DNA of 64,000 bases from contig NZ_CP146243.1 of NCBI RefSeq assembly GCF_037039395.1, forward strand, positions 1-64,000. The letters are read 5' to 3'. The notes beneath the pieces were generated by a model. That model had not been told where the DNA came from. It made no database searches and was given only the letters and a program-made list of their open reading frames with translations. Origin of the DNA: Agrobacterium vitis. GTDB taxonomy: Bacteria; Pseudomonadota; Alphaproteobacteria; Rhizobiales; Rhizobiaceae. A program made the translations under genes and the position numbers. Positions 23,508-55,667 of this stretch are shown here, piece after piece. How positions within the stretch are numbered: the stretch's first letter is position 1; each line of letters begins with the position of its first letter.

Positions 23508-24434
23508 ATGACCGTAATTCTCACCGCATGCACGATGCGCAAGCGTTTTTCCCCAGATGTATTGCTCAATGCCAGGGCAATCACGGCGGGAACGACGCGT
23601 TCGGTGGGAGAAGATTGGCGTGATCGGATACGGCGCGCGGAACCTCAAGTTTCGGCATCCGACCTGTACGCCGGAAGGAGTATGGCAGAGGCCAAAACGG
23701 CCGCCCAAGCAATTGGGGCTAAATTGACCATAGCGTCGGCCGGTCTTGGGTTGGTACCGGCGGAAAAGAAGATTCCGAGCTACAACCTTACTGTCTCGCC
23801 AGGTTCAGTAGACTCGATCTTAAGGAAGCTTCCACCCGAAGCTGATGCCCACGACTGGTGGCTGGAGGTATTCTCCAGTCGGCAGGCCGAGGCGGTGTCC
23901 GAGGTGCTGCAGGGCAGTTCTCACGCCTTACTACTTGTGTCGCTCCCACATTCCTACCTTCTGATGCTGACGCCGCTTCTTATCTCCCTTTCGACGGCGA
24001 ATGCAGGGCGATTGCGGATCATGACGACCTCCACCAAAGTGGATCTCGCCCCTGCCTTGAGACCTTTCCTACTTCCATATGACAAGCGCCTGGATGGCCC
24101 CGACAGCCCCATCCCAGTAACCATGGGCGACTATGCTTCGCGCGCGCTAAGGCACTTCGTAACCAACGTTCTGCTCGATAATCCTGACGGTAACATAGCT
24201 GATCACGCTGATGCGGTGCGCTCCAGGCTACTCGATTGGCGGTTCCCGGAGCGAAAAGCGGGCAAGCGTGTAGGTGACCAAGAAGTCCTAAAACTGCTGC
24301 GCGACAATTGGGCCGTGGCTAACGGCAGTTCTACAAAACTATTGCGGATGTTCCGGGACGACATGAACATCGCCTGCGAACAAGGCCGCTTCTCGCGACT
24401 TGCCGCAATTGTGCGAAACGAGGTCAAAGCCTAA
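23508..24434 (+). CDS. YaaA/DUF6884-like protein in the DpdC position
   Basis: This encodes 308 residues. The N-terminus MTVILTACTMRKR followed by SDLYAGRSMAEAKTAAQAI, LTIASAGLGLVPAEKKI and PSYNLTV follows the layout of the YaaA/DUF6884 superfamily (TAC/S-K at the start, an LYxG segment, a SAxxGL strand). In the described Salmonella Dpd system a protein called DpdC turns preQ0 in DNA into the amide form; this gene sits where such a function is expected. The functional match is inferred from fold pattern and neighbourhood only. It overlaps the next gene by one base (TAATG). The start is uncertain: no strong ribosome binding site is visible. Confidence 0.65.
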   Translation: MTVILTACTMRKRFSPDVLLNARAITAGTTRSVGEDWRDRIRRAEPQVSASDLYAGRSMAEAKTAAQAIGAKLTIASAGLGLVPAEKKIPSYNLTVSPGSVDSILRKLPPEADAHDWWLEVFSSRQAEAVSEVLQGSSHALLLVSLPHSYLLMLTPLLISLSTANAGRLRIMTTSTKVDLAPALRPFLLPYDKRLDGPDSPIPVTMGDYASRALRHFVTNVLLDNPDGNIADHADAVRSRLLDWRFPERKAGKRVGDQEVLKLLRDNWAVANGSSTKLLRMFRDDMNIACEQGRFSRLAAIVRNEVKA

Positions 24435-25555
24435 TGAGTGCACAAGATCATATCGCGGTACGGGCGGTCAAAACGCAGCAGGGCGTCGAAACGGATGTGT
24501 ACGCGTTTTTCCTTCCGGGATCCGAGGTCATGAAGATCGCCGAAATCAGTCGGATTCAGCGCGACGACAATGAATTGAAAGGTTTCCAGCGGCAAGAAAT
24601 CCGCAGTCACGTCAATTCCATCGTCGAATTCCTGGATAGTGGTCCCGTTCTTTTCCCCAATGCGATCATTCTTGCCCTCTCAAAGGATGTAACTTTCACA
24701 GCCGCGAGAGGCTCGAAGCCTTCCGAAGCGGTGGAAATCGTGACGTCGGGCACTTTACGTATCCCAGTTCCCGCATCCGGCAGCAAAGCCGCTTGGATCG
24801 TGGATGGTCAGCAGCGCTCGCTCGCGCTTTCGCGAACGCAGAACAAGGACATACCGGTTCCTGTCATTGCGTTCGTCTCCCACGATATTGAAGTTCAGCG
24901 TCAGCAGTTCATTTTGGTCAATAAGGTGAAAGCGCTGGACACGCGTTTGATTGACGAACTACTTCCTGAAGTCAGCACACTTTTGCCAAAGGATTTGGCT
25001 GAGAACAAACTGCCAAGCGAACTTTGCAATTTGCTCAACACGCACAAAGACTCGCCGTTCTACCGACTGATCAAAAGAAAGTCTGATAAGAAATCATCCA
25101 ACGCGGTTATCGTGGACTCTGCTCTCATCGCGGCGGTCAAAGCGAATTTGAAGCTCCATACCAGTGCTCTGAGCCAATATGTCAACACAGACGGCACCTC
25201 TGATGCCGATGAGATGTTCAACATGCTGGTGAAATACTGGACAGCAGTCAAAGACACCTTCCCTGAAGCGTGGGGGAAGGCGCCCGAAAAGAGCAGGCTA
25301 ATGCACATGGCCGGGATCCGTGCGATGGGAGCCCTCATGGATCCCGTCATGTTGCGTGCTGAAAGCAGCATGGACGTCGAGCAAGACATTCGCCAATCTC
25401 TCGGTCGTTTGAAGCCATATTGCTGCTGGACGGCAGGCAAGTGGGATGATCTCGGATGGAAGTGGAACGACCTTCAGGGCACCTCGCAACATATCGACAG
25501 GCTTTCGCAGTATCTCATTCAACTTGATCGCAAGCTTTCAAAGGCCTCACGATGA
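24434..25555 (+). CDS. dpdB: DGQHR-domain protein 1 (DpdB/DndB-like)
   Basis: This encodes 373 residues. The DGQHR signature appears as VDGQQR (123-128), preceded by a GFQRQEIRSHV motif (50-60) and an LFPNAIILAL strand. DGQHR proteins include DndB of phosphorothioation systems and the ParB-like DpdB that works with DpdA in 7-deazaguanine insertion. It overlaps dpdA by four bases (ATGA), the tightest coupling, which suggests it is the functional partner of DpdA. A paralogue of the same length lies on the other side of dpdA. Confidence 0.82.
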   Translation: MSAQDHIAVRAVKTQQGVETDVYAFFLPGSEVMKIAEISRIQRDDNELKGFQRQEIRSHVNSIVEFLDSGPVLFPNAIILALSKDVTFTAARGSKPSEAVEIVTSGTLRIPVPASGSKAAWIVDGQQRSLALSRTQNKDIPVPVIAFVSHDIEVQRQQFILVNKVKALDTRLIDELLPEVSTLLPKDLAENKLPSELCNLLNTHKDSPFYRLIKRKSDKKSSNAVIVDSALIAAVKANLKLHTSALSQYVNTDGTSDADEMFNMLVKYWTAVKDTFPEAWGKAPEKSRLMHMAGIRAMGALMDPVMLRAESSMDVEQDIRQSLGRLKPYCCWTAGKWDDLGWKWNDLQGTSQHIDRLSQYLIQLDRKLSKASR

Positions 25556-26919
25556 AGTTCATTTTTGCCGACAGCCTCGACCACGTCGATCCCGGATACG
25601 ATTTCCTTCGCGACCGATACTCTGCAGATCGCAAGCCATATTGGGATGACGTCTATCCCCATGAGATTATGGGTTATGCGCCTTACGATGGCATGCTTGT
25701 TTCGCGCGGGATTGTCGGCGGGACGGCAGTCGGCGGAAAATATACTGAAGCCCAGGCCATGCGCTTCCGTCGCGACGGCGCTCGAAGCTTTCTTCGGCTC
25801 GATAAGCCACCGTTCAGCACACTTCCTATCTTTGGGGACTGCGGTGCGTTCACGTATCATAAGGAAGAGCGACCACCGTACACGTCGGAGGATACCGCCG
25901 AGTTCTACGATGACGGCCGTTTCACCCATGGCTGCTCCGTCGACCATATCATTTTCGACTTCGACGAAGACCTGACGGGTTTTAACGGTGGGACGGAAGA
26001 CGCCCGCCGCCGGTTCGACATAACTCTCCAAAACGCGGCCGAGTTTAAAGTCTCCACCCGCCACATGTCTAGCCGCTTCACCCCACTTGGGGTCATTCAG
26101 GGATGGTCGCCCGGAAGCATGGCAGAGGCCGCCCGTCAACTCGTCGCTATGGGCTACGACTACCTTGCTCTCGGGGGTACCGTTCCTCTGAAAGCCTCGC
26201 AGATCAAGGCCTGCCTCCGAGAAATCAGGGAGGCAGTTCCGCAAAGCACGAGAATACATGTCCTTGGATTTGCCAAGGCAGACGAAATCGAAACTTTCGA
26301 ACCCTTCAACATCACGAGTTTCGACACGACCTCGCCGCTTATCCGTGCTTTCAAAGATGCGAAGGCGAACTACTACCTGCCGAATTCTGCGGGAAGACTA
26401 GACTATTACACGGCAATACGCGTGCCGCAGGCGCTGGAGAACCCGAAACTTCAGCGGCTTGCGAAGCGCGGCGCTTTGAATCAGGAAGAATTGGTCAAGA
26501 TGGAACGCAGCGCCTTAGATGCGCTCCGAGCTTACGACCGATACGAAGCGTCGATCGACGACACACTTGAGGCTGTCTTGACCTACGCTACGCCAGCGTT
26601 GATGGGCGCGCCTCTTGCCGATCTTCCTGGAACGCGAGCAGTCGACGATCTCAGGGCGCGTTACAGGCGAACGTTGGAAGATCGGCCGTGGAAGGCATGC
26701 GCCTGTCCGATCTGCCAAGCACTCTCGATCGAGGTTCTTATTTTCAGGGCGAGTAACCGTAACAAGCGCCGCGGAATCCATAACCTGGGCGTCTACAAAT
26801 CGCTCGTAAACAAACTCCCATCTAGAAGTGAATTAAATGACGAAGCTGACATTCCAGGCGATACAAGCAAAGCAAAGCCAGACCCACACGGTCCTATCGT
26901 TTGCAGCCCTTGCATCTGA
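25552..26919 (+). CDS. dpdA: DpdA, DNA-directed transglycosylase (TGT homologue)
   Basis: This encodes 455 residues. It has a TGT-type barrel with GDCGAF (95-100, Asp96 equivalent to the base-binding Asp of TGT), LALGGTVPLK (206-214), and SFDTTSP (256-262, Asp258 equivalent to the nucleophile). A zinc site follows: C383-A-C385-x2-C388 with His410 in the GIHNL segment. In the Dpd system DpdA exchanges guanine for preQ0 in DNA. The divergence from tRNA TGTs, the que genes and the DGQHR neighbours support DNA as substrate. The last 30 or so residues after NKL look non-homologous and overlap the next gene by 83 bases, so the stop may have been displaced. Confidence 0.9.
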   Translation: MKFIFADSLDHVDPGYDFLRDRYSADRKPYWDDVYPHEIMGYAPYDGMLVSRGIVGGTAVGGKYTEAQAMRFRRDGARSFLRLDKPPFSTLPIFGDCGAFTYHKEERPPYTSEDTAEFYDDGRFTHGCSVDHIIFDFDEDLTGFNGGTEDARRRFDITLQNAAEFKVSTRHMSSRFTPLGVIQGWSPGSMAEAARQLVAMGYDYLALGGTVPLKASQIKACLREIREAVPQSTRIHVLGFAKADEIETFEPFNITSFDTTSPLIRAFKDAKANYYLPNSAGRLDYYTAIRVPQALENPKLQRLAKRGALNQEELVKMERSALDALRAYDRYEASIDDTLEAVLTYATPALMGAPLADLPGTRAVDDLRARYRRTLEDRPWKACACPICQALSIEVLIFRASNRNKRRGIHNLGVYKSLVNKLPSRSELNDEADIPGDTSKAKPDPHGPIVCSPCI

Positions 26920-27958
26920 ACTTCAGCAGTTCGCCACCATCGAGCGTGTTGCCCGTAACGAAGCGGGTGCGCTGAGTGGTTTTCAGCGCCCTCAGATCGC
27001 TGGTCACATCAGGGAAATCCGGGACTATCTGGAGAAGCCGGAAGCCATCCTTCCGAATCCTATCGTGGTTGCGTTTATCGACCGCGTCGAGGTTGGGCCT
27101 GTCGATGTTGATGGACGGTGTACTGTCGAGATTAACCTCGCCCGCGGCGCGCCAGGTCTCGTCGTCGATGGACAACAACGCCTGACAGCCCTTTCCCAAG
27201 TTCATGAGAAGGATTTTCAGGTATTCGTTTCGGCCGTGATCTGTGCGGATGAAGCCGAATTGCGCCGACAATTCGTCCTCATCAACAACACGCGGCCTTT
27301 GCCCAAATCTTTGATCTACGAACTGTTGCCCACTGTTCGGGGTTTGCCGCGCAGGCTTAGCGATCGATCACTTGCTGCGGAATTGGCTGCAAAGCTAAAT
27401 TTCGACCCACATTCATCGCTGAAGGGATATATCTATCAGCACACGAACCCGACGGGTATTATCCGCGACACCGCCATTCAACGCGTGATCATCAACTCGG
27501 TCAGCGATGGCATCATGCGCGAGATGGTCAAAGAGCCAAACGGCACAGAATTGTGTTTTGATCTGGTGAATGAATTCTATCGGGCCGTTCAATACGTGTT
27601 TCGAGACGAGTGGCGCGACCACACTCCGAAAACGTCTCGCTTGGTCCATGGCGCGGGCATTATGGCACTGGGATACGTCATGGAAATCCTGGCGCTCCTC
27701 GATGGGGCCAGGTCATGGCAAGATTTCGCCAAGGGCTTGGCGTGCCTTGTCGGCCGTACCGCGTGGACATCTGGGCAGTGGGACTTTGGCAACGGCGATC
27801 AACGGCATTGGAAATCGGTGCAAAACGTCAATCGTGACATTGTCACTCTGGGGCAATACCTGAATACAATTGTGAGGAAGGACGTCAAAGCGCGTCGGGC
27901 GGCGGCGACCGAAGTGCAAGACCTGAAAATTTCGGTACCAAGCGAGAGGGCTCAATGA
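26837..27958 (+). CDS. DGQHR-domain protein 2 (DpdB/DndB-like paralogue)
   Basis: This encodes 373 residues. VDGQQR is at 110-115, preceded by SGFQRPQIAGHIREI (47-61) and LPNPIVVAF (72-80), the same layout as the DGQHR gene before dpdA. Downstream RRQFVLINNTRPLPKSLIYELLP matches RQQFILVNKVKALDTRLIDELLP in the paralogue, so they arose by duplication or recruitment of close families. It starts inside the end of dpdA (83-base overlap) and overlaps queE by four bases. It may share or regulate the insertion function; which DGQHR gene is the true DpdB is not decidable by eye. Confidence 0.8.
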   Translation: MTKLTFQAIQAKQSQTHTVLSFAALASELQQFATIERVARNEAGALSGFQRPQIAGHIREIRDYLEKPEAILPNPIVVAFIDRVEVGPVDVDGRCTVEINLARGAPGLVVDGQQRLTALSQVHEKDFQVFVSAVICADEAELRRQFVLINNTRPLPKSLIYELLPTVRGLPRRLSDRSLAAELAAKLNFDPHSSLKGYIYQHTNPTGIIRDTAIQRVIINSVSDGIMREMVKEPNGTELCFDLVNEFYRAVQYVFRDEWRDHTPKTSRLVHGAGIMALGYVMEILALLDGARSWQDFAKGLACLVGRTAWTSGQWDFGNGDQRHWKSVQNVNRDIVTLGQYLNTIVRKDVKARRAAATEVQDLKISVPSERAQ

Positions 27959-28587
27959 CCTATGCGGTAAAAGAGCTTTTCAAAACCTTGCAGGGAGAAG
28001 GCGCGCAGGCCGGCCGCGCAGCAGTTTTCTGCCGTTTCGCCGGCTGTAACCTGTGGTCCGGCCGCGAGCAGGACCGCCAAAATGCGGTGTGCCAGTTCTG
28101 CGATACAGACTTCATCGGGACAGATGGCGAAGGCGGCGGCAAGTTTCGTGACGCCGGCGAGCTTGCGTCGGAGATCGCTCGGACATGGGGGGACGTGCAG
28201 AGCAGGCGCTATGTTGTCTTCACCGGCGGCGAACCGCTGCTGCAGATTGATGATGCGCTGATTGCGGCGGTCCACGAACACGGTTTCGAGATCGCAATCG
28301 AAACCAACGGGACGATCGAACCGCCGGAGGGCATCGATTGGATCTGCGTCAGTCCGAAGGCCGGCGCGCCATTCAATCTCAAATCCGGCAGCGAACTGAA
28401 GCTGGTTTATCCGCAGGCGCAGTTGCTTCCTGACGATCTCCCCGAGGTTTCCTTCGAGCACTATTTCCTGCAGCCAATGGACGGGCCGGAACAGTTTCAA
28501 AATATCGCGGCCGTGACGGCATTTTGTCTCGAAAACCCCCGCTGGCGGCTCAGCCTGCAGACACACAAAATGATCGGGATCCCATGA
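27955..28587 (+). CDS. queE: 7-carboxy-7-deazaguanine synthase
   Basis: This encodes 210 residues. It is a radical SAM enzyme that contracts 6-carboxytetrahydropterin to 7-carboxy-7-deazaguanine. The iron-sulfur cluster motif is C31-x14-C46-x2-C49, the lengthened form seen in many QueE proteins, and FTGGEPLLQ follows near 90. FKTLQGEG (9-16) is the usual QueE N-terminus. It overlaps queD by four bases (ATGA). Confidence 0.95.
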   Translation: MTYAVKELFKTLQGEGAQAGRAAVFCRFAGCNLWSGREQDRQNAVCQFCDTDFIGTDGEGGGKFRDAGELASEIARTWGDVQSRRYVVFTGGEPLLQIDDALIAAVHEHGFEIAIETNGTIEPPEGIDWICVSPKAGAPFNLKSGSELKLVYPQAQLLPDDLPEVSFEHYFLQPMDGPEQFQNIAAVTAFCLENPRWRLSLQTHKMIGIP

Positions 28588-28940
28588 AAATCACACAAGC
28601 ATTTACATTTGAGGCGGCCCACAGACTTCCAAATGTGCCCACAACGCACAAATGCCACCGCATGCACGGGCATTCCTACCGGGTCGAACTGCAACTCAAA
28701 GGCTCCGTTGATCCACGGACTGGTTTTGTGATCGACTTTTTTGATGTGGAGAAAGTTTTCGGGCCGGTTCTCGAGAGCCTCGATCATCATACACTCAACG
28801 ACATAGACGGCCTCGAAAACCCGACAGCGGAGAATATCGCTGTCTGGATTTGGCAAAAGGTCAAGCCGCTGCTCGACGAGTTGAATTCCGTGAAGGTATT
28901 CGAAACGCCATCCTGCTGGGCGGAGTTTGAAGGCAATTAA
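28584..28940 (+). CDS. queD: 6-carboxytetrahydropterin synthase
   Basis: This encodes 118 residues. It converts dihydroneopterin triphosphate to 6-carboxytetrahydropterin. Zinc ligands His13, His28 and His30 (in AAHRLP and MHGHSY), catalytic Cys24 and the LDHHTLND segment are all present. It is normal length for the family. It is translationally coupled to queE; queC starts 13 bases downstream. No folE is nearby, so the substrate must come from the chromosomal GTP cyclohydrolase. Confidence 0.95.
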
Positions 28941-28953
28941 AAGGAATCGGGCG

Positions 28954-29655
28954 ATGTCGACGACTGCACTGGTGCTATTTTCTGGCGGCCAAGATTCAAC
29001 GACCTGCTTGGCCTGGGCGCTCGACCGCTTCGAGCGCGTGGAGACCGTCGGTTTCGATTATGGTCAGCGCCATCGGATCGAGCTCGAATGCCGGGACACG
29101 TTGCGCGCTAAAATGACCGCGCTCAATCCTGTATGGGCGGATCGCCTTGGAGATGATCACACGATATCGCTCGCCGCACTCGGTGAGATCTCGGATACCG
29201 CGTTGACCAGTGGCATGCAGATCGAAATGTCCGCATCCGGACTTCCAAATACGTTCGTGCCTGGTCGAAACTTGATATTTCTGACCTTTGCAGCCGCCCT
29301 GGCGTATCGTCGCGGCCTAAAGCATATCGTAGGGGGAATGTGCGAGACGGATTATTCTGGCTATCCCGACTGCCGTGACGATACGATCAAAGCCTTGCAG
29401 GTGGCGCTCAACATTGGAATGGAAAAGCGGTTCGTCCTCGACACACCGTTGATGTGGATCGACAAAGCCCAAACTTGGCAACTGGCCAGGGATTTGGGCG
29501 GCCGGGCGCTCGTGGATATCATCGTGAAGGATAGCCACACCTGCTATCTCGGCGAGCGAGGCGTGTTTCATGATTGGGGTTATGGCTGTGGCACGTGCCC
29601 GGCCTGTGACCTGCGGGCAAAAGGATACGAAAAGTTCGTCGCGGAAGGAGTGTGA
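28954..29655 (+). CDS. queC: 7-cyano-7-deazaguanine (preQ0) synthase
   Basis: This encodes 233 residues. It is an ATP-dependent enzyme that converts 7-carboxy-7-deazaguanine to preQ0. The PP-loop SGGQDS is at 10-15 and the C-terminal zinc site CxGxCxxC ([11 protein letters not shown]) with an upstream Cys is intact. AAGGA lies before the ATG. It completes the QueD-QueE-QueC route needed to supply DpdA. Confidence 0.95.
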
Positions 29656-29668
29656 CAAGGAGAGCGGG

Positions 29669-30232
29669 ATGAATACGCGAAACAGACAATGGATCGAGGG
29701 CGGGATTTTTCTTGCTGGCTTCACCGCCTGCATCCCGCTCGCCAATTATATGATTGGCCATGTCGGCACGATCTGCGTGCCTAACGGTCCCTGCATGATC
29801 CCCGTCGGCTTTGGTCTGACGGCGCCAAGCGGTGTCCTGCTCGTCGGGCTTGCCCTCGTTCTGCGCGACCTGGTGCAGCGTCGCCTCGGCCTTTTGTGGT
29901 CGCTCGGAGCGATCATAGTTGGCGCTTTCCTGTCGACGACCTTCACGGCGCCGTCTTTGGCGCTGGCCTCTGCAAGCGCCTTCCTGATCTCCGAGTTCGC
30001 TGACCTGCTGGTGTTCACGCCTCTGCAGAAAAAGGGCCTGGTCAAAGCGGCCTTTGCAAGCAGTATTGTCGGCCTCATCGTCGATAGCGTGATGTTTCTT
30101 TGGCTGGCATTCGGTTCGCTTGATTTTATGGCTGGACAGGTTGTAGGGAAATTGATCATGGTTGTAGCGGCGCTTCCAGTACTGTTCTGGATCCGCAACC
30201 GCGACCGACGATTGGGGCTGATGGCAGCATGA
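29669..30232 (+). CDS. VUT-family queuosine-precursor transporter
   Basis: This encodes 187 residues. It is an integral membrane protein with about six predicted hydrophobic helices, of the YhhQ/VUT family that imports preQ0/preQ1. Conserved blocks SEFADLLVFTPLQKKG and SIVGLIVDSVMF are characteristic. The ATG at 29669 has AAGGAGA upstream. It overlaps the next gene by four bases. A decayed second copy of the same family is present at 31966-33515. In this setting it would add salvaged precursor to the preQ0 pool. Confidence 0.88.
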   Translation: MNTRNRQWIEGGIFLAGFTACIPLANYMIGHVGTICVPNGPCMIPVGFGLTAPSGVLLVGLALVLRDLVQRRLGLLWSLGAIIVGAFLSTTFTAPSLALASASAFLISEFADLLVFTPLQKKGLVKAAFASSIVGLIVDSVMFLWLAFGSLDFMAGQVVGKLIMVVAALPVLFWIRNRDRRLGLMAA

Positions 30233-31143
30233 CGACAGAGGCCGAGGATAAACTGGGATGTATCCAGGCCGTTTTTGAGGCCATTAGGGGTAAGTCTATC
30301 TCCTTCTTTCCTCGAGTCGACGACAATCGCGCCCCGGGCAAGCTGCGCACGCTTACCGACAAGGAAGCGATCGAAGTAATTGGTGCCGAGGTCAAGCAGT
30401 TGGCGCCTGACAAAGACTCCCTTGAGGCCGCGTTGAAGGTCGCTCGCGAGTCTCTCGACGAAGTCACTGCTCAGACCGACTATCAGGACGGAAAAGCGAC
30501 GCGGTTACTCACCATCTTGACCTTTATGTCCGCCTTCTCCGGACTTGCCTTCAACCGGCTTGCGGATGGCTATCCGCTCTCGATTATATCCTGGGCCGAT
30601 AAATGGTCAGCAATCAACAGCGGCCTGGTTGTCGTCAGTTATCTGCTCTTCGCAGCGTTTGCCTTGCTAGCCACCTCCGGGGCTCTGGTGACGTTTCATG
30701 CGATCAGGGTTCGCTTCCGCTATCCAAGAGCAGTTGCGAAGGACAAGCCTCCGGTCTCGATGCTTTTTTGGATGGGGATCTCGCGTACTCAGCCAAACCG
30801 GTGGGCAAAAGCCTTCGTTGACCCCGCCGATGCGACAAAAGTCGCACCGGAACTGCGGACGGAATACCTTAGGAACTATATTGTCGAAACATATCTGATC
30901 GCCGCTAAGGTCGCCGATAAAGTGAGGTTTCTAGAGCCGGCGCAGCGCATCCAGTCCTGGGCTATCACGGCCTTGTTCTCTTGGATTATCACAACGGCTG
31001 GCGTATTTGCCTTTGTGCATCCGGTTAAAAAAGAGTCTAATCCGGTGATTCGAATAGAAACGCCGATTTCCTCGGTGTGCATTACTGGTGAAAACAATGT
31101 CTCCACGGCAGCAAACGGCCAGCCTTGCAGCACCTCGCCCTGA
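30229..31143 (+). CDS. Membrane protein of unknown function in the Dpd operon
   Basis: This encodes 304 residues. A soluble N-terminal region of about 80 residues is followed by DYQDGKATRLLTILTFMS at the start of a hydrophobic segment, a second helix near 130-155, a cytosolic segment, and a third helix near 245-263 before a short periplasmic tail. The D-x-KA-x-LLTI motif entering two membrane helices resembles the layout of small membrane effectors in nucleotide-signalled defence systems. I do not claim that family. It overlaps the transporter gene by four bases, so it is operonic. It is not one of the named dpd genes. Confidence 0.7.
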   Translation: MTTEAEDKLGCIQAVFEAIRGKSISFFPRVDDNRAPGKLRTLTDKEAIEVIGAEVKQLAPDKDSLEAALKVARESLDEVTAQTDYQDGKATRLLTILTFMSAFSGLAFNRLADGYPLSIISWADKWSAINSGLVVVSYLLFAAFALLATSGALVTFHAIRVRFRYPRAVAKDKPPVSMLFWMGISRTQPNRWAKAFVDPADATKVAPELRTEYLRNYIVETYLIAAKVADKVRFLEPAQRIQSWAITALFSWIITTAGVFAFVHPVKKESNPVIRIETPISSVCITGENNVSTAANGQPCSTSP

Positions 31144-31918
31144 CACGGGTCGCGCGGGACCGCTGGTCCTGATTGATGCGGATAACACCCTCTGGGACAC
31201 GGATGGCGTTTTTGCCAAAGCGCAGTTGGGTCTTCTAGACGCGGTCGAGCATGCCGCCGAGTTGACTGGTCCTGAGGTCAATCGCCTAGAGTTCGTCCGG
31301 AAATTCGATCAGGAATTGGCTCAGAGGCATCATCTTGGTCTTCGCTATCCTACGCGCCTGCTCATCGATGCGTTGACACTCGGGCTACGGGGCGTGGATT
31401 TTCGAGAGGCTGTGCGGCGTGCCTGGAGCAATGGTGCGGATTCAGGTCTCGGCCGTGCTGTGGTGGCCAACATCGAGAGCCAGTTCTTCGCAAACATCGC
31501 AAAACAGCCAAAGCTCCTTGTTGGCGTCGTTAAGGGTTTGCGCGACCTTGCCTCCATCGGCGCGACGTCGGTCGTTTTCACGGAAGGGAGCCGTAAGCGT
31601 GTGATGCGCACGATCGAATCGCACCAACTCAGCGGGTTCGTAGATCGTGTCTTTGAGGCGCCAAAAACGGTCCGCATGTTTGAGCGGGTGAAGAAACTGG
31701 CGACGGTCAACCAGTCAGTCTATGTGATTGGCGATCAGCTTACCCGCGACATCCGACCGGCAAACGAGGCTGGTGTCAAGACGATCTATATACCTGGCGG
31801 CTTTCAGCCGAAGTGGGAGTTCGAAGCCGGCACCCTGCCGACATTCCAAGCTCCCTCGTTCGATGCGGCGGTGACGTTCCTGCTTCACTCCGAAGATGAT
31901 ACCCGCCCGGCCGACTAG
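31097..31918 (+). CDS. HAD-superfamily hydrolase
   Basis: This encodes 273 residues. Motif I is LIDADNTLWDTD (nucleophile Asp27, general acid Asp29), motif II Thr in VVFTEGS, and motif IV GDQLTRD. The layout fits phosphatases or nucleotidases, and in this operon a nucleotide or deazaguanine-nucleotide substrate is possible but unproved. It overlaps the membrane protein gene by 47 bases. An upstream in-frame GTG at 31088 is an alternative start. Confidence 0.75.
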   Translation: MSPRQQTASLAAPRPDTGRAGPLVLIDADNTLWDTDGVFAKAQLGLLDAVEHAAELTGPEVNRLEFVRKFDQELAQRHHLGLRYPTRLLIDALTLGLRGVDFREAVRRAWSNGADSGLGRAVVANIESQFFANIAKQPKLLVGVVKGLRDLASIGATSVVFTEGSRKRVMRTIESHQLSGFVDRVFEAPKTVRMFERVKKLATVNQSVYVIGDQLTRDIRPANEAGVKTIYIPGGFQPKWEFEAGTLPTFQAPSFDAAVTFLLHSEDDTRPAD

Positions 31919-32122
31919 GCGGGTGAAAACCCGAACTATTTGCGGGTCCAGAACAGGACGTAATCCTCGCCGACCTCCTCGTATTCACGCCGCTCCAGAA
32001 GAAGGGGCTCGTGAACCTGCTTTTGTCAGCAGTGTTGCCGGCCTCATCGTCGACAGCAGAACGTTTCTTTGACTCGCCTTCGGCTCGCTGGATTTCCTGG
32101 CTGGCCAAGTTGTCAGTAAACT

Positions 32123-35569: not shown

Positions 35570-35681
35570 CCTCTTAATATCGTCAGCATGCGCCCAACGG
35601 ATGATGTCCTTCGGGTTCGCCACAAAAACCAGAAAGGGGACTTGTCCGCCGGGCTGCTGGTCGACAAAAAATGCTTCATAG

Positions 35682-40018: not shown

Positions 40019-40554
40019 GCGGCCTTGCCCACGTATGATTCAAAATTGATCCGTGCTTCGGCGAGCGTCTTCGGCATGGTGTCGTAGACAACCATCTCGT
40101 CGTTCAATTCGAGGCCGTTGTAGGTGAGGTTCATCGACCCGGTGAGCAGGCCTCGTTTGAGCAGCACGCCCTTAATGTGAAGATGCTGTCGCCGGACGAC
40201 GCACAACTTTTCGGTGAGGCCGGCCTCGTCGGCTGCGGTCGCGAGCGCATCGATGAGCGGATCGTTGTGATCGTCTAAGCTCGTTGCAATGCCGAGCGCC
40301 GTGCCGCGCGCCATGACGTCGGTCAGAACCTCGACCAATCTGATCTCGCGGCTACCCCACTCTGGATTTATCGAGCCGAAACCGCCTGCGCGGTTGTCGA
40401 ATAACACCACGTTGCTGATCCAGGGGCTGACCAGCCATGCGCGCTCTCCGCCCGGCGCAAGGAGCTCGCCGAGGAACATCATTTGCAGGAGTTCACGAAT
40501 GAGATTCTGGCTGGTCACCGCGCTCTTGAAGATCCGTCGTGTCTGAAAACTCAT
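40015..40554 (-). CDS. dpdK: DpdK, phospholipase D-like nuclease
   Basis: This encodes 179 residues. A single HKD motif is present: H126-x-K128 followed by GS-x-N (139-142, in LLTGSMNLT). Enzymes with one HKD copy act as dimers, as in the BfiI/Nuc nucleases. It is the only obvious nuclease in this operon, so it is a good candidate for the DNA-cleaving subunit. It overlaps dpdJ and dpdD by four bases on each side. Confidence 0.85.
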   Translation of the reverse strand: MSFQTRRIFKSAVTSQNLIRELLQMMFLGELLAPGGERAWLVSPWISNVVLFDNRAGGFGSINPEWGSREIRLVEVLTDVMARGTALGIATSLDDHNDPLIDALATAADEAGLTEKLCVVRRQHLHIKGVLLKRGLLTGSMNLTYNGLELNDEMVVYDTMPKTLAEARINFESYVGKAA

Positions 40555-48800: not shown

Positions 48801-48941
48801 CTCGATATTCGTACCCGCGTTGCGCGTCGTGAGCGGAGTCGGCTGATGAACCGCCAGCAGGACTGATACGTCCGCGGTCTCAGCTTCGTTCTTGATGCAG
48901 ACGTTGACCTCTTCGGCCCCCGGCCAATATCTCTCGAGCAT
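45822..48941 (-). CDS. dpdH: DpdH, large P-loop ATPase
   Basis: This encodes 1039 residues. ATG 48941 overlaps the dpdG stop by one base (TGATG) with AGGAAAGG upstream; the longer frame to 48992 is not needed. Walker A GPSGVGKS is at 75-82 and a Walker B-like VLLVEDFAALSG lies near 310-320. The length and STAND/AAA-like architecture suggest a switch ATPase. A Pro-rich linker (TPPSTPPPSPPAR) near 615 divides the protein in two. It probably senses or coordinates restriction; this is inference. Confidence 0.83.
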   Translation of the reverse strand: MLERYWPGAEEVNVCIKNEAETADVSVLLAVHQPTPLTTRNAGTNIEATAIEQDLLDAFLSDDVPGGYLLFPITGPSGVGKSHIIRWLDAQLRRSPKRDRLHIIRIPKSASLRRVVELILEPLDGDPRFERSRSELARAFAEIDKRKAVVLFRAQIENALASRAEALLLEAREHRDRAVELRPLIGHAQMLPKLFGDAALKDHFDEAVLARVVARALRGREDGAEGDETQSQFFAEDLLLPDAIDLNEAALTVKTYYQTQLAVQDVRRRQAAADLLNTIVDTAIGNVFQLEQSTGGITLQDIILGIREILLKDDMDLVLLVEDFAALSGIQDVLLKVCVQEGTHDGKKVRATMRTALALTDGYLASRDTILTRAQRVWVIGHREQGDDEIKRAVIEMVGSYLNAARWGEDGLRKRFDRRSADEGLTGWLPAWQDEEQSDEETEALTAFGFSARGHALFPFNRLAIEQLVLQHLTEANRLVFNPRRVINEILRRPLLMRGTFVSGSFPPPEFHGLRPNAYLAGLVRQVSQPEQVKRRLGSALAVWAGNAADQAELAHVPPAIFSTFSLPTPADLANVVFVPISTSPTSPTGPVPGETPPSTPPPSPPARAEQDPRVTAWSKKLDAWASGIELVQADARELRSALVAMLKGAVNWPALRIPDQEIKATWLSIAGARNNPVGGRILVVCDTHDDQDGTLREGFLGVLRFGFKGHRWDYPEADIDYVASAAIIDRLVAQLVPMLVAEANAQTAVIGRALLNQSRIVGLSPPVRPAGAEPLLRGLFSPTPPVETQAFEEGWDQLRAQATGSVNGRSTRTILQQLLLDRSASFQGTGSKPFAVDSPRLLDVLAGDSLTGPLPDGLPDEARTFIPTMTDARIWGKLQSVIAKLRAFRTEIADYVDENFDKGAFVADLRQIIPLLQKTNCWPDNVTINRSEFEIRLTEFQTSRFVDLVEKTAMIVEEADREQIPKLLNALGSLDLGLIQRTMSFLALANQIVSQAEPRVTQQEAVRGQSDPNSVAAEITSLLEGATGTSHVAAEAAE

Positions 48942-49843
48942 CAAAGCGCCTTTCCTGATTGCGCCAGGGCTACATGCGAAACGTCCCGCCAAGTGCGCGC
49001 ATTACTGCCGGTGAGAGATACGACGCCCTCGGTATCACTTCGGCTTGAGAGCGTAATGAACCCCTCATGACCGAGTCGCTGGATCGCCCGCGACATGGAC
49101 GAGGAGACGAGGCCGGCACGGAGCCTGGGCCAGGCGCTCTCCTTCAGCGCGCCCTCGACCTGGACCCGATAGGCGCCCCCGTCGAGAACCGGCAGCACCG
49201 CGGCAGCCCGCTCGACAAAAGCAGGAGCGGACAATTCTCGGTTCGAACCGAAGATCTCGGGAAGCGCCTCGCGCAGCGCCTGCGTTGGATCGACGACCCA
49301 CTGCATGCCGTCCTGGGCGAACCCCAGATAGAGCATCCAGGTTTTGAGGCCGTTCCAGCGCGTATTGTTCTGGACGATCTTCTGCGCGCCGCTGTCGAAC
49401 AGCTGCCGCCCCTCTAGTTCAGCCAAACGGTCCGAATTGACGTCAAGCGTATAAACGTCCTGGGCGAGCATCCAAGCCACGCCGCGCGACAGGTCCGCGC
49501 TCTTGGCTCCCTCGCTCTCCCAAAAACGCGCGTTGTTTGCCGACTGCAACGCCACTGTGCGCGCCACTTTCGGAAGGCAGCCTTCCGCTCCGTCAGCGTT
49601 CTTGCCGAGCACAGAACGGTATGGCTCGGCGATGATAACGGACCCGTTTTCCTCGCCGAACAGGCCAAGTTCCGTCCAGCGGTTTAATGTTCGCGTCAAC
49701 TGGCTGGAATCGCACGCGTCGGCGGCGCCGCCACATGCAAGGATTAGCTCTTCGCGGTTCTTTGGCCCAAAGCGAACGAGCGCGCGAACCAGCACGATCA
49801 GCACATTGAAAAGCCCGTCGCTTGCTTGATTGAGGAGACTCAC
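48941..49843 (-). CDS. dpdG: DpdG-like protein
   Basis: This encodes 300 residues from GTG 49843 in a GTGA overlap with the dpdF stop. The longer frame starting at 49921 lies inside dpdF and is not translated. It is a soluble helical protein with a winged-helix-like N-terminus (SSQLTRTLNRWTELGLFGEENGSVI). No catalytic motif is seen. The position between the RecQ-like helicase and the ATPase matches DpdG. Function in the family is unknown. Confidence 0.77.
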   Translation of the reverse strand: MSLLNQASDGLFNVLIVLVRALVRFGPKNREELILACGGAADACDSSQLTRTLNRWTELGLFGEENGSVIIAEPYRSVLGKNADGAEGCLPKVARTVALQSANNARFWESEGAKSADLSRGVAWMLAQDVYTLDVNSDRLAELEGRQLFDSGAQKIVQNNTRWNGLKTWMLYLGFAQDGMQWVVDPTQALREALPEIFGSNRELSAPAFVERAAAVLPVLDGGAYRVQVEGALKESAWPRLRAGLVSSSMSRAIQRLGHEGFITLSSRSDTEGVVSLTGSNARTWRDVSHVALAQSGKAL

Positions 49844-52422
49844 AGACGCGCTCCGAGGTTGAATTGATCGACCGCTAGCACATTGGTACCGGTGTCGCCA
49901 ATGCGGCGCGCGAAGTTCCATGGGTCCGGCGTCGAGGCCGATGCTATGATGACATGCAGCGGTCGCTTCATGATGAATAGATCTTTCGGCAACGTCGTGC
50001 CAATTGTGTCCGTCCAGAGCGTTACACGGGGAAGCTCGTAGGACGAGGGACGGAGCATTTCTTCTTCGAGCGTCTGCAGCAATAGCACATGATCCTCGCT
50101 CTGCTTGTGCAGGACTGACAGCGCCGGATTGCGCTGGCGAAATGACGCGAAGGTCGCGATCTCGCGCACGCCGAACATCGCGACGAAATCGCGCAGCAGG
50201 CCGACGAGCGCAGCATCGTCGAGCGGGTCCTCGACGGGCAGGATGATCGGCTCGTTCAAGTCGAGATGCGGGAAACGACTTGAAAAGAGGCTGAGGTCGA
50301 ACTGGCCAACCTGCTCGATGCCATAGGCGGGTGGCGCTGGATAGTTGGTGTTAGCCTTCCCCTCGCGGCGATGAGTCGGGCATCCCCCGCATGCACGTGA
50401 TACAATGACTGAGCGCCCCGGGGCGTTACTGCGATAAAGACGATCCAGCAGCAGCGATACCTCGGTCGAACCGCTCAGCAGCTTCTCGAGGAGGGCGCGA
50501 TTCTCGGTTGCTGCATAGAACGAGCGCTGCCGCTCTTGACCGATCAGCGCTTCGAAGCGTTCGCGGCTGAGGTGGCCGAACTCCGACATGCCCACGACGG
50601 TGCGCAGAAAATATTCGGACCAATGCTCATCGCTGCGGAGCTCAAAGGCGGATTCGCTCTCATCCTCCTGCTGCGCGATGCGAGAAGGCGGCTGCGATTC
50701 CAGTTCCAGCATGCCGGCGCGAGCCATCATGATCAACGTGCGCATGTTCCACGAATGGTTATAGTCTGACTGCCTCCGCAGGCGCGGGGGAACGGCCGCC
50801 AGGTCCACCTCGAGCAATTGCCCGATTGTATCGAGTTGCGCGCTTTGACTATACATGGTCGACCACCGCTCGAACGCGAGATCGCCGCTGATCAAGGAAG
50901 GCGAGGCGATCCGGTTGGCCGTCTCCTGGTCCTCGCGCGAGTAGATCAGGAACGACGCCGAGGGACAGCCATCGCGTCCGCCGCGTCCCACTTCCTGGTA
51001 GAAGCGATCGAGCGTCTCGGGCACGGCGGCATGAATGACCGTGCGCACGTCGCGCTTGTCTATGCCGACCCCAAAGGCCGAAGTGGCGACGATCCCATCG
51101 AGCCGGCTCTCAGACCACCGGTCGATGATGCGCTGACGGTCGGCATGCGGCGTCTCGCCGTGAAAGCAATCGATACGCGCGTAACCTTCGCTCCGCAGCA
51201 GCCGGATCCATCGTTTGGCATCACTGCGCTTCGTCACATAGAGGATGAATGGGCGCGGGGCGTGCCGCAGAAGTTCGAGAACCTTACGGTCCTTGTCTTC
51301 GGGATCGTCCTCGCGGTGCACCCAATATTGTGGCTCTGGCCGAAGATGGACCGAGGCGACCATCTGGACCGTGCGCGCGGGCCCGAACAGCGCGTCGATT
51401 GTTTCCACCGTGTCAGGCGTCAGAGTCGCGGACATGAGAAGCGTCCTGAACCGCCGGCCCTCGGGGCATGCGTCCAGCAGGCCCCGGCGCACGCCCGCCA
51501 GCATTTGAAAGGCGGGGCGAAAGCCATCACCCCATTGGCTCACCAGATGGGCCTCGTCGACGATAAGATACGAGATCAGTCCGGCGCTCGCCGCATCGTA
51601 AAGCGAGGGCAGCAGCGCGCCCGTCACCGCCTCGGGCGAACAATAGAGAATGCCTTGGCGACCCACGCGGATGGCGGACTTGATCGCGGCGCGCTCCTCC
51701 GTGCGGAGGCCGGCATGCCATGCAAGCGCGGGCACTTCGCGGCGTGGGTAGCGGTGTTTGAGCATCTGCCGCATCTGCCGCGCCTGATCGAACACCAGTG
51801 CGGTCGTCGGCACAACACAGAGCGATAGGCCGCCTTCGAGGCCCCGCGAGAGGACGGGGGCCTGGGCAACGAAGCTCTTGCCCGACCCGGTCGGCAGCGC
51901 CACCACCAAGGTCTCTCCCGCCGGCAGCAGAAAGGCGCTGCGCACCGCTTCGCGCTGTCCCGGGGACACATAGGTGTCGAAACCGCTTGCCTCGCCAAGA
52001 AACGGATCGATCGGCCGCTGCCAGTCGAGCCGGACATTTCGCTCGGCGAAGACATCCTCGAAGACCGGGTTGTCGCTGTCTTCGATCCAGGCCGCACGCC
52101 ATGGCCGGGCCTCGATCAGGAAATGTCCGCTCGATTCACTATGGGCACGGATGCCAAAGTTCGCCCAATCAGTTCGACTTGGCCAACCCGCTCCAGAAGG
52201 AATGCGCAACTGGGCCTGCTGACCCGCACGCAACGCCTGCCGGCGCAGAACATGCCGAAAGAGCGCCATCGCGTCCTGCGGACTGTTCAGTCGCCCCGTT
52301 GCCTGCGATGCTAGGAGGACCTGGGTTAGCCTTTCGAAAATACCATCGGTGACCGACTGGGTGCCGACCTTGGCGAGGTCTAGCAGGGCGTCTTGCAAGC
52401 TTCCGAAATCATGCACGGCCAT
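49840..52422 (-). CDS. dpdF: DpdF, RecQ-like helicase
   Basis: This encodes 860 residues. RecQ-type motifs: ALPTGSGKSF near 178-186, IVDEAHLVSQWGDGFRP near 288-304 (the aromatic-rich RecQ loop), FGVGIDKRDVRTVIHA and YQEVGRGGRDG near 450-482. A Cys pair (RACGGCPTHR) near 680 may bind zinc. ATG overlaps the dpdE stop by one base (TGATG). It is consistent with a 3'-5' DNA unwinding role in the restriction complex. Confidence 0.9.
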   Translation of the reverse strand: MAVHDFGSLQDALLDLAKVGTQSVTDGIFERLTQVLLASQATGRLNSPQDAMALFRHVLRRQALRAGQQAQLRIPSGAGWPSRTDWANFGIRAHSESSGHFLIEARPWRAAWIEDSDNPVFEDVFAERNVRLDWQRPIDPFLGEASGFDTYVSPGQREAVRSAFLLPAGETLVVALPTGSGKSFVAQAPVLSRGLEGGLSLCVVPTTALVFDQARQMRQMLKHRYPRREVPALAWHAGLRTEERAAIKSAIRVGRQGILYCSPEAVTGALLPSLYDAASAGLISYLIVDEAHLVSQWGDGFRPAFQMLAGVRRGLLDACPEGRRFRTLLMSATLTPDTVETIDALFGPARTVQMVASVHLRPEPQYWVHREDDPEDKDRKVLELLRHAPRPFILYVTKRSDAKRWIRLLRSEGYARIDCFHGETPHADRQRIIDRWSESRLDGIVATSAFGVGIDKRDVRTVIHAAVPETLDRFYQEVGRGGRDGCPSASFLIYSREDQETANRIASPSLISGDLAFERWSTMYSQSAQLDTIGQLLEVDLAAVPPRLRRQSDYNHSWNMRTLIMMARAGMLELESQPPSRIAQQEDESESAFELRSDEHWSEYFLRTVVGMSEFGHLSRERFEALIGQERQRSFYAATENRALLEKLLSGSTEVSLLLDRLYRSNAPGRSVIVSRACGGCPTHRREGKANTNYPAPPAYGIEQVGQFDLSLFSSRFPHLDLNEPIILPVEDPLDDAALVGLLRDFVAMFGVREIATFASFRQRNPALSVLHKQSEDHVLLLQTLEEEMLRPSSYELPRVTLWTDTIGTTLPKDLFIMKRPLHVIIASASTPDPWNFARRIGDTGTNVLAVDQFNLGARL

Positions 52423-55400
52423 CAGATACCGCCCGAAATCTGATCGGTCGCCGATCGGCTCGCCGAGATGAATACTGCGCCAATCGTATCGAGCCGCACA
52501 CGAGGGACATTGATGCCGACTCGCAGTTCTGCGGCGAGTTGCTCCTCGAACATCAGCTCGGCACTTTCTCCTTCGGCGGTCGCCGTACGTACCCGTACCC
52601 GCAATTGCCCGAGGCGCCCTTGATCGACGCGGGCTGCCCGCTGCTCTGCTTGACCAAGGCTTGCGATCAATTCGGGATCAGCACGAAGCGCGTCCTCTGC
52701 CACCGATCTAGCCTTTCCGCAAAGCTCTCTCCAATAGGCGAGTTCCGGGAGTTGCAACTGCAGCAGACGCTGCCATCTTCTTGAGTTCAGGTTGAGATCG
52801 AGGGCCCCGCTACGGTCAGGCTTGACGCTATACGGGCGCCCTAAGCGCGCCAACAGCGCCCCATCGTCCACGAGATTCAACTCACGATCGAGCCAAATCG
52901 AGCGGTAAAATGGGGCGAGCGCCATGTCGCCTCGTCGGCGAACGGCCGCGCGGGCGGCGCTCGTGTCACGATGATATGTAGCCAGCACGCTCATCGCCGG
53001 GGCGATTTCCGCCTCTAAGAGGAAATCGAAGCGAAAATAGAACTCGGCAACCGGGTCGCCGATATGATCGGGCACAAAGCGCCACATAGTGAAGGATCGA
53101 CCGCGATCGTCGGCTTCCGTGAGCACGGTCAGTCCGCTGATCAGGGGATCACCGTAGCGCAAAAGACCAACGCCATTGGCGCGCGCGGCATGACTGAGCG
53201 CAGTTCGTCTGCGGAATGTGTACGGAATCGTTCTGACCGTCCGCCCACCCCTCGACCCGAGCACCAGATCGAGTGCGTCCGCGCACTGCGTCATGAACGC
53301 CGGAAGGGAGATCAGGGTTTGCGGATTGGAGGTCGAATAGACGTAACGAAATGGTGCTGCCGCACCGGTGCCGGCGAGCAGGCGCGCCTCGTCGGCGCGG
53401 CCGAATTGGAGAGTCTGGTCGAGCCAGGCTGCCGTATCGCTTGCGATCGACTGCCAATCCTCGTCGACTTCCGAAATCTCATCTATCATATCGGTCGGAG
53501 GCGCTCCCAGCGCATCAAGCGCATCCTGTTGATCCATCGATTTGATCTCGCGTTCAATTGAACCCTGGTCGCCTGCGCCGCTCGCTGTCAGATCGGTAAT
53601 TGCCTCGGCGCCATCCGTGAAAAGTGCGCGCGCGATCTCGCGCAAGGTCTGCTCGATCAAATATTGAAGGCTCGCAACCGAGCGGTCGAATACCCTTAGG
53701 GCGGTGTCGAGATAGCCTATCCAAGCCACTTCCAAGGGATCGTCCTCGCAAGCCAGCACGAGCGAACGCACTGCCTCGCCGGATCCATAGCGATCCACCC
53801 GTCCGAGCCGCTGCTCGATCCGGTTCGGGTTGAGCGGCAGGTCATAATGGACAACCACCTTCTTTCCGCCCTGGAGGTTGAGGCCCTCCTCGGCTCGTCG
53901 GTCGCAGACGAGCACAGGATGATCGGCCGCCCCTGCAAATGCTACCCACGAATCGTCCTCTGGATCGTGCCGATCGACCGTGATCTCCAGCGCGCCTCGG
54001 ATGAGGCGCGCAAGGGCGTCGGCGGTTTTCGGATCTGAACAGAAAACGACGCACTGGGCGCGACTACGCACCAGCGGAGCGAGCACCTCAAGCAGTGCCT
54101 GTGACCGGTCTTCAAACAAGCCGGCGCGCTCGAGAGAACGGTTGATCGCCGTAAAGCGTTCGTGATCGCCGATCATCGCGGTTTGACCGGCGAGGAATCC
54201 GTTTTTCCCTTGGCCAGCAATCGGATATTGCGAAGCGCGATCAAGCATCTGCCAGAAGGTACTTACACGGTCGCTCCAGAGGCTTTCGGAGCCTGCTGCG
54301 TCGAGTCTGACGGCCTCATCGAACCGCCAGTCATCCAAAGCGGCTGTCAATGCTGCGCGATCGACGCTCGGGTATCGGATGATCTCGGCGCCAGAACGGT
54401 CAGGGGTTAGTCCCCCGATGCTTCGCCGGCGGTGGCGCAGGATACGCCGATGCAACCTGTAAACTTCGCTGAGATGGGCACGTAGCCGTCCGATCGCCAC
54501 GATGAGTGCAGGATCCTCGGGATCGGGCATCGTCTCGAGGACGCTACATAAGTCGTCCGCATGCTCTTGCAGCAATTCGTCATGAGGAAATAGGGTGGCC
54601 AACTGCTCGATGGTATAGTCCAGGTATAGCGCGTTTTCGGGTGTCAGACCGGCAACGATCTCCGCCAGCGCTTGCCGGTTTTCGACCTTTCGCCGAAACG
54701 ACTCCTCGCCGTCGAGTTGGTAAATAGCGGGGTCGAGCAGGTGTAGCATCTCAAGAAAGCCGCGCTCATTGTGAAGCGCTGGCGTGGCAGACAACAACAG
54801 GACACGGTCGATTGATGGCGACGCTGCAGCAACATCGGCGTAAATTCGGTCACCGATGCCCGTCTTTTGCCCAGTCAGATGATGCGCTTCGTCGATCACT
54901 AGCATCGTAGCGCTAGGCAGAAGCGCGCGTATGCTGTCGTAATCGTCCAGTGCAACAATATGAAGGCTGCGGTCTAGGCAGGGCCCGAGGAAGAATTTGT
55001 TCGCTAGCTCCCTTCGCCATTGATCGACTAGCGCTGCAGGCACAATCACAAGAACGCTGCATTTCTGCTGTGTATCGATAATGCATTGCCGGATAAGTAC
55101 GCCGGCCTCGATCGTTTTGCCCAGCCCGACCTCGTCCGCGAGCAAATAACGCTGAACGGGGTCCTGGAGGATGCGCCGCACTACCTCGACTTGATGCGCT
55201 TCGAGTTCGATCGCGGACGGAAGCAAAGCCGACATTCCCATCGATGCTGCGCGTTGTCGCGTCTGCGAACGCACGAACGCACTGCGACCATCGGAAAATC
55301 GCGGGCTTTCATTGATCCGGTTAGCGAGGAACGGGGTCGGGTCGTCAATCGGGTGTGCCCAGCGTACGAAAATCGTATCGATCTTTAGGTGCTTTGTTTT

Positions 55401-55667
55401 GCTGTTCGGGAACTGGACAAGTTGACTGTCGCCGTGGTCGTCGAGGAGCCGGCCTATCTCCCATGCGACCGCCGCATCGTTGTAATGATAAATTCGGGTC
55501 TGCTCAGCGAGTGTTACCCGCTCGATTTGCTGAGCTTCAATGTGGTGGATAACCGGTTCGGCCGTAGGCGATTCGAAATATTCGACAGAGCAGAGTGACC
55601 CTTTTCGGGCGATCAACTTGCCGATACCCAGCGATGCGCACTGCCCCCCGTTCGCCTGGACGAACAC
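52422..55667 (-). CDS. dpdE: DpdE, SNF2/RapA-type ATPase
   Basis: This encodes about 1081 residues. GTG 55667 with GAGGG 6 bases upstream is preferred; an in-frame TTG at 55673 is an alternative. SNF2 motifs: ADEVGLGKTIEAG near 177-189, VIDEAHHLTG near 255-265, LLLSATPALHNE, and the C-terminal helicase half with EQRLGRVDRYGSG near 620. It is first in the operon, so its promoter must lie in 55668-55787. SNF2 translocases move on double-stranded DNA and occur in several restriction systems. Confidence 0.9.
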   Translation of the reverse strand: MFVQANGGQCASLGIGKLIARKGSLCSVEYFESPTAEPVIHHIEAQQIERVTLAEQTRIYHYNDAAVAWEIGRLLDDHGDSQLVQFPNSKTKHLKIDTIFVRWAHPIDDPTPFLANRINESPRFSDGRSAFVRSQTRQRAASMGMSALLPSAIELEAHQVEVVRRILQDPVQRYLLADEVGLGKTIEAGVLIRQCIIDTQQKCSVLVIVPAALVDQWRRELANKFFLGPCLDRSLHIVALDDYDSIRALLPSATMLVIDEAHHLTGQKTGIGDRIYADVAAASPSIDRVLLLSATPALHNERGFLEMLHLLDPAIYQLDGEESFRRKVENRQALAEIVAGLTPENALYLDYTIEQLATLFPHDELLQEHADDLCSVLETMPDPEDPALIVAIGRLRAHLSEVYRLHRRILRHRRRSIGGLTPDRSGAEIIRYPSVDRAALTAALDDWRFDEAVRLDAAGSESLWSDRVSTFWQMLDRASQYPIAGQGKNGFLAGQTAMIGDHERFTAINRSLERAGLFEDRSQALLEVLAPLVRSRAQCVVFCSDPKTADALARLIRGALEITVDRHDPEDDSWVAFAGAADHPVLVCDRRAEEGLNLQGGKKVVVHYDLPLNPNRIEQRLGRVDRYGSGEAVRSLVLACEDDPLEVAWIGYLDTALRVFDRSVASLQYLIEQTLREIARALFTDGAEAITDLTASGAGDQGSIEREIKSMDQQDALDALGAPPTDMIDEISEVDEDWQSIASDTAAWLDQTLQFGRADEARLLAGTGAAAPFRYVYSTSNPQTLISLPAFMTQCADALDLVLGSRGGRTVRTIPYTFRRRTALSHAARANGVGLLRYGDPLISGLTVLTEADDRGRSFTMWRFVPDHIGDPVAEFYFRFDFLLEAEIAPAMSVLATYHRDTSAARAAVRRRGDMALAPFYRSIWLDRELNLVDDGALLARLGRPYSVKPDRSGALDLNLNSRRWQRLLQLQLPELAYWRELCGKARSVAEDALRADPELIASLGQAEQRAARVDQGRLGQLRVRVRTATAEGESAELMFEEQLAAELRVGINVPRVRLDTIGAVFISASRSATDQISGGI

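Follow-up and report, generated by a model that had tools for sequence, protein, structure and literature searches.

A complete Dpd island in Agrobacterium vitis with an accessory gene pair and signs of separate writer and reader exchange

The window and its Dpd island

The stretch of DNA considered here, referred to as the window, comprises the first 64,000 bases of contig C3 (206,864 bases) of Agrobacterium vitis, whose genome (assembly GCF_037039395.1) consists of five contigs and amounts to 6.04 Mb. Between positions 23,508 and 55,673 it encodes, as judged by profile searches, a complete Dpd system with every gene from dpdA to dpdK present. Dpd systems, which exchange a DNA base rather than methylate it, are a known kind of system; what goes beyond it in this genome is a second island, an apparent reassortment of modules, and an accessory gene pair.

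The island is organized in two halves (Table 1). The plus strand carries the marking half, whose core, dpdC-dpdB1-dpdA-dpdB2, will be termed the writer, together with genes for the supply of preQ0 and the accessory pair, i.e., orf304 and a HAD phosphatase gene. The minus strand carries the attacking half, the genes dpdD to dpdK, which will be termed the reader. All eight reader genes are called by PADLOC, with DpdI weak. Of the proteins compared with NCBIfam (all Dpd proteins but DpdG and DpdK), DpdA, both DpdB proteins, and DpdD, E, F, H, and J score above the curated cut-offs.

An initial annotation, made from the letters alone, had spoken of a near-complete island. The island is indeed there, but it is complete rather than nearly so and includes dpdC, which that annotation had left unnamed. 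Its other statements on the genes agree with the searches: the frames are open, their order and strands are as described, including the minus-strand order dpdE-F-G-H-I-J-K-D that the PADLOC calls reproduce, and a Dpd model is the best one for each protein. The profile searches that had been proposed as a check place the helicases, the PLD-type protein, and all the others in Dpd families.

Table 1. Genes and features of the Dpd island in the window (E values and bit scores from PADLOC, NCBIfam/TIGR, and Pfam profiles)
Feature	Position	Strand	Evidence and remarks
dpdC	23508..24434	+	PADLOC DpdC E 8e-106; NCBIfam, no hit; start preferred, as the profile covers the longer frame (from 23,415) only from residue 31 on
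dpdB1 (DGQHR protein upstream of dpdA)	24434..25555	+	PADLOC DpdB E 4e-136; NF041060 456 bits, cut-off 300
dpdA, TGT-like base exchange enzyme	25552..26919	+	PADLOC E 7e-168; NF041059 563 bits, cut-off 200
dpdB2 (DGQHR protein downstream of dpdA)	26837..27958	+	PADLOC DpdB E 2e-121; NF041060 387 bits, cut-off 300
queE	27955..28587	+	TIGR04508 354 bits, cut-off 240
queD	28584..28940	+	TIGR03367 104 bits, cut-off 89; start inferred, the frame from 28,524 being matched by the profile from residue 22 on
queC	28954..29655	+	Pfam QueC E 4e-70; TIGR00364 205 bits, cut-off passed; start inferred
YhhQ/Vut_1-type queuosine-precursor transporter	29669..30232	+	Pfam Vut_1 40.5 bits, cut-off 27.2; start inferred
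orf304, PycTM-like membrane protein, first of the pair	30229..31143	+	PADLOC PycTM E 1e-6
HAD phosphatase, second of the pair	31097..31918	+	Pfam HAD_2 and Hydrolase above cut-offs; start inferred
Remnant, 3' end of a second yhhQ	31966..32122	+	92% DNA identity to the yhhQ end of L005, 78% to yhhQ of the window; direct repeat D1
dpdD	37739..40018	-	PADLOC E 1e-69; NF041061 630 bits
dpdK, PLD-type protein	40015..40554	-	PADLOC E 2e-49; Pfam PLDc_2
dpdJ, DEAD-type helicase	40551..45146	-	PADLOC E 0; NF041067 1860 bits
dpdI	45091..45825	-	PADLOC E 1e-7; NF041066 117 bits, short of cut-off 150
dpdH, P-loop ATPase	45822..48941	-	PADLOC E 3e-137; NF041065 835 bits; start inferred
dpdG	48941..49921	-	PADLOC E 8e-58 from residue 28; real start probably within the frame
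dpdF, RecQ-like helicase	49840..52422	-	PADLOC E 7e-215; NF041063 935 bits
dpdE, SNF2-type ATPase	52422..55673	-	PADLOC E 5e-270; NF041062 977 bits

For comparison, Dpd loci were fetched with this DpdA as the query, and nearly all of them are proteobacterial. Whole-genome searches covered 67 dpdA-bearing genomes, 394 genomes of the family, and 385 of the class, whereas motif counts refer to 71 of 72 loci, the remaining one being left out for insufficient DpdA coverage. DpdA was said to retain the catalytic aspartates of tRNA-guanine transglycosylases (TGT), and this is the case: the candidates are D96 and D258, whose catalytic roles we take over from the TGT enzymes, and the corresponding motifs, D.GAF.Y and D..SP, occur in 70/71 and 67/71 DpdA sequences, with CxCxxC...H in 71/71. 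The preQ0 genes and the precursor transporter reported on the plus strand are likewise confirmed, as queE, queD, and queC each pass the cut-off of their own TIGR profile and the transporter is a Vut_1 relative above the Pfam cut-off, although it falls short of that of TIGR00697 (33.5 vs 50.95). A further QueC, the third in the genome, is encoded on contig C2.

From family membership, QueD, QueE, and QueC would make preQ0, and the YhhQ-like transporter would import it. DpdA, assisted by two distinct DpdB partners, would exchange guanine for preQ0 in DNA, DpdC would hydrolyze this preQ0 to the amide, 2'-deoxy-7-amido-7-deazaguanosine (dADG), and DpdD to DpdK would attack DNA devoid of the mark. 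The DNA of this strain is accordingly predicted to be modified, and unmarked DNA to be restricted.

In family content and in the division into synthesis and restriction operons, the island resembles that of Salmonella enterica serovar Montevideo, with its dpdA-K genes, as presented in the dpd section of the GATOR-GC study (PMC11888242). The window differs from the Salmonella island by having two apparently ancient DpdB paralogues around dpdA, the orf304-HAD pair, and a transporter and queE, queD, and queC of its own. The same section surveys 2,335 unique dpd windows and reports that dpdB may be present in additional copies (n = 801), that dpd genes can be accompanied by preQ0 genes and YhhQ, and that some islands lack restriction genes; it names no HAD/PycTM pair, no separate writer and reader histories, and no genome with two islands (PMC11888242). 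A literature search, in which key Dpd papers and supplements were missing, likewise returned nothing on these three subjects.

Two DpdB paralogues around dpdA

The two DGQHR partners recognized by the initial annotation correspond to dpdB1 and dpdB2, both above the NF041060 cut-off. A DpdB lies directly upstream of dpdA (B1) in 67 of the 71 loci and directly downstream (B2) in 69, and the motif DGQQR is present in 67/67 B1 and 68/69 B2 sequences. The two look like ancient paralogues because, on a FastTree tree of 136 DpdB sequences in which some long branches meet, the upstream/downstream label switches once.

A third DGQHR protein, encoded at 33569-34609 on the minus strand, matches NF041060 with 51 bits, below the cut-off, and has an HNH protein (35682-36581) as its neighbor. 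The 5' part of the DGQHR gene is interrupted by an IS5-type element (34661-35506), and in locus L005 the two genes adjoin without the insertion sequence (IS). An HNH-DGQHR pair of similar kind stands beside the second island of genome G405. Also between the writer and reader halves, a protein with an Mrr_cat restriction endonuclease domain is encoded at 36705-37643 (Pfam E 2e-14), with a relative of 86% identity at the equivalent place in L014.

A second island in the same genome

The genome contains a second dpdA (77% identity) and a second dpdE (52%) on C4, a contig of 1.23 Mb, where bases 60,000-139,999 hold a full second Dpd set without the orf304-HAD pair. Its writer is 45% (DpdC), 61% (DpdB1), 77% (DpdA), and 76% (DpdB2) identical to that of the window, and its reader 54% (D), 77% (K), 66% (J), 47% (I), 55% (H), 51% (G), 60% (F), and 52% (E), compared with 92% for queE, 96% for queD, 95% for queC, and 83% for yhhQ. 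C4 likely belongs to the same cell as C3, as supported by an IS transposase gene located behind the accessory pair (32178-33290), a copy of which on C4 (115,890-116,999) encodes a protein 100% identical to it. Against this stands the contamination of 2.35% given for the assembly, so that a common cell is not proven.

A match to the DpdA profile was found in 22 of the 394 family genomes; it is full-length in 8, two of which have two such proteins, and the short, weak matches in the other 14 are probably tRNA TGT. A cell with two complete islands prompts the question of how these can coexist.

Separate relationships of writers and readers

Six loci, namely the window, L003, L005, L009, L014, and L078, have closely related readers, with pairwise identities of 90-97% for dpdK and 81-94% for dpdD. 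Their writers fall into three groups: the window with L003, L005 with L009 (and the C4 island), and L014 with L078. From group to group, identity is 42-52% for dpdC and 60-76% for DpdB1, and DpdA and DpdB2 are 76-78% identical between the group of the window and the other two. The C4 island and L005 make the point most directly, since their DpdA and DpdB2 are 98% and 99% identical, whereas dpdD of C4 is only 55-56% identical to those of all six loci and dpdD of L005 is 91% identical to that of the window. Divergence of dpdC can also accompany nearly unchanged A and B2, as between L005 and C4, at 63% vs 98-99%.

Trees of the two modules disagree in the same manner. The writer tree rejects the grouping of the six loci by reader, at a cost of 1014 log units (p 7.5e-4), and the reader tree, built on dpdK and dpdD, rejects the placement of L005 with C4 (p 1e-40). 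At the DNA level, L005, L011, L012, L044, and C4 are 67-69% identical to the window at 27.6-27.9 kb and 90% identical to it at 28.2-28.5 kb, a step that falls across the dpdB2/queE junction. Further along, 29.7-31.8 kb has 94-98% identity to L011, and 33.4-36.6 kb has 93% identity to L005, the IS excepted. All eight reader genes of the Shinella locus L078 are 87-94% identical to those of the window. Two features of these data weigh against an exchange: for L003, L005, L009, and L014, which were fetched with 10 kb flanks so that their dpdE-I lie outside the fetched DNA, the reader comparison covers dpdD, dpdK, and part of dpdJ, and the reader tree has long outgroup branches.

A different explanation would be that no module has moved and that writer genes merely evolve faster than reader genes, in keeping with dpdC and dpdB1 being the least conserved genes of the writer in these comparisons. 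Rates, however, cannot place L005 by C4 in its writer (DpdA 98%) and by the window in its reader (dpdD 91%), both alternative groupings are rejected on the trees, and the steps in DNA identity occur at one gene junction, so that we regard this explanation as very improbable. The comparison instead suggests that writer cassettes and readers have been exchanged separately between relatives. The Dpd core of the island, together with this modularity, is the part of our interpretation in which we place high confidence.

If writers and readers are exchanged separately, what the reader responds to would be the presence or absence of the chemical mark and not a single writer with which it has co-evolved, and the reader of the window would tolerate the marks of diverged writers. 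The two islands of this cell presumably need not attack each other, given that L005 and L009 combine writers of the C4 group with a reader of the window's type. Such natural recombinants offer a means of testing whether recognition by a reader depends on mark chemistry or on a particular writer.

The accessory pair orf304-HAD

The frames of orf304 and the HAD phosphatase overlap and directly follow yhhQ. They co-occur in the same 23 of 68 loci (L003-L070, fetched DNA), and also in L079. Searches of the 67 whole dpdA genomes located orf304 in 24 of them, at 26 loci, all inside Dpd islands: 23 lie inside the fetched loci, two others (G413 and the second island of G405, whose surroundings were fetched) have the HAD gene adjoining, and one (L027) is truncated where its contig, taken to be C1, ends some 3 kb from dpdA, with the HAD gene beyond view. 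One of the 26 (L069) is degenerate. In the family genomes, 4/4 orf304 matches lie within 5 kb of a DpdA, the class genomes gave matches in the own genome only, and all three plasmid records with orf304 also hold dpdA; the family and class searches scored at most five candidates in each genome and may therefore have overlooked diverged relatives.

The predicted structure of orf304 has a mean predicted local distance difference test score (pLDDT) of 82.5 and long helices at residues 62-114, 125-160, and 209-262, with hydropathic 19-residue windows beginning at 90, 126-143, and 243-248. The PADLOC profile of PycTM, a Pycsar effector, is matched by 79 of 80 orf304 relatives, the protein of the window being aligned to profile positions 9-152 of 160. 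PF18967 is precomputed on many of these relatives, while the local Pfam copy detects it in 6/80, with a best E of 0.01. In its partner, the catalytic motifs, with residues D30, D32, K193, G215, D216, Q217, R220, and D221, do not vary among 17 sequences, and the solved relatives found are HAD hydrolases and phosphatases. Comparison with relatives suggests that the operon has gained a PycTM-like membrane protein together with a HAD phosphatase. Behind the HAD gene lies the remnant of a second yhhQ, whose resemblance to the yhhQ end of L005 points to the pair having been brought into an L005-like island by recombination, along with a yhhQ of its own.

The reading that we rank first, if only tentatively, is that the pair constitutes an auxiliary effector arm of Dpd, in which orf304 would be a nucleotide-responsive membrane effector and the HAD phosphatase would limit its signal. 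The tie of the pair to Dpd islands would then suggest a further layer outside the dpdA-K names. Several observations count against it. The PycTM match of orf304 is weak by itself (27 bits) and misses the Pfam cut-off, and a fold search with the model gave no telling match in the PDB. Unlike the Pycsar PycTM, orf304 is paired with a HAD phosphatase and has no adjacent cyclase, no cyclase family having been found in a Pfam scan of the longer frames of 13.2-61.9 kb. Moreover, one of four plasmid records with the HAD gene lacks dpdA (Sinorhizobium fredii, a partial record not among the 30 dpdA records), and one of five HAD loci in the family genomes (G165) is on the dpdA contig without adjoining dpdA.

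The pair could alternatively serve the supply of preQ0, with the HAD protein dephosphorylating deazaguanine or other nucleotides and orf304 assisting the transporter. In most cases it is part of the modification operon and, where yhhQ is present, comes immediately after this gene; in a Mesorhizobium locus (L015, 14127-15545) yhhQ and orf304 form a single frame of 472 amino acids, a relative of this length with PF02592 (P0068) represents 16 sequences, and the HAD protein weakly matches pyrimidine-nucleotidase models. Yet the pair occurs without a detected yhhQ at ten of the fetched loci (L024, L025, L029, L034, L035, L042, L047, L060, L062, and L070), the C4 island has queE, queD, queC, and yhhQ without the pair, and nearly all orf304 relatives resemble a defence effector, which makes a role in supply rather unlikely.

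We give a similarly low probability to the pair being an independent addiction or defence cassette that rides in Dpd islands. The 13 or more changes between presence and absence of the pair on the tree of DpdA (66 rows), the yhhQ remnant as a mark of insertion by recombination, and the occurrence of the HAD gene without dpdA nearby would fit such mobility, but an independent cassette would be expected at other places as well, and orf304 was not seen elsewhere in the family and class genomes among the candidates scored.

A more specific version of the effector arm, which we consider quite improbable, is a built-in abortive-infection arm. A phage degrading the host DNA would release deazaguanine-marked nucleotides, and these, or a signal made from them, would open the PycTM-like effector, while the HAD phosphatase would clear the background. 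The DNA mark would in that event have two functions, labelling self for restriction and raising an alarm over the destruction of the host genome.

The notion that the pair substitutes for the restriction operon was examined and rejected. In the raw table, with DpdE present, 8 loci have the pair and 28 lack it, compared with 17 and 14 with DpdE absent (Fisher p 0.011), and tables at the genome level gave p values of 0.043 and 0.022. The first table has 67 rows, obtained from 67 loci by removing six ambiguous ones (L007, L015, L034, L019, L041, and L021) and adding six labelled by island (the window, L009, L074, L007, L078, and L079). Phylogenetically independent pairs gave a median p of 0.625, a test in which most pairings have too few informative pairs to reach 0.05. 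As a separate observation, L079, on plasmid B of Sinorhizobium americanum CCGM7, has a writer half and the orf304-HAD pair without annotated restriction genes in the 48 kb fetched.

Surroundings of the island

The initial annotation had assigned the island to a rhizobial-type replicon, and this is borne out by bases 1 to about 12.9 kb, a common rhizobial plasmid backbone with 94% identity to a plasmid of Agrobacterium radiobacter; an Alphaproteobacterial ar15 small RNA (RF02345, 111 bits) is located at 63-172. Matches in the family genomes G045 and G178 have the same coordinates as those in Ensifer sp. LCM 4579 and Metarhizobium album, in keeping with a place in the Rhizobiaceae. Upstream of the island are AbiEi/AbiEii toxin-antitoxin genes (13175-14939), and the region 13175-19302 also includes an IS110-type transposase, an AraC-type regulator, and a 206-residue frame of the phage-integrase family (18682-19302). 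The G+C content in 2-kb windows is 0.54-0.58 in the writer half and 0.57-0.64 in the reader half. Finally, inverted repeats at 55778-55963 and 60818-61471, consisting of 164 nucleotides (97% identity) and 24 nucleotides (100%), join the region upstream of dpdE to a frame of 1262 amino acids and of unknown function (58148-61936).

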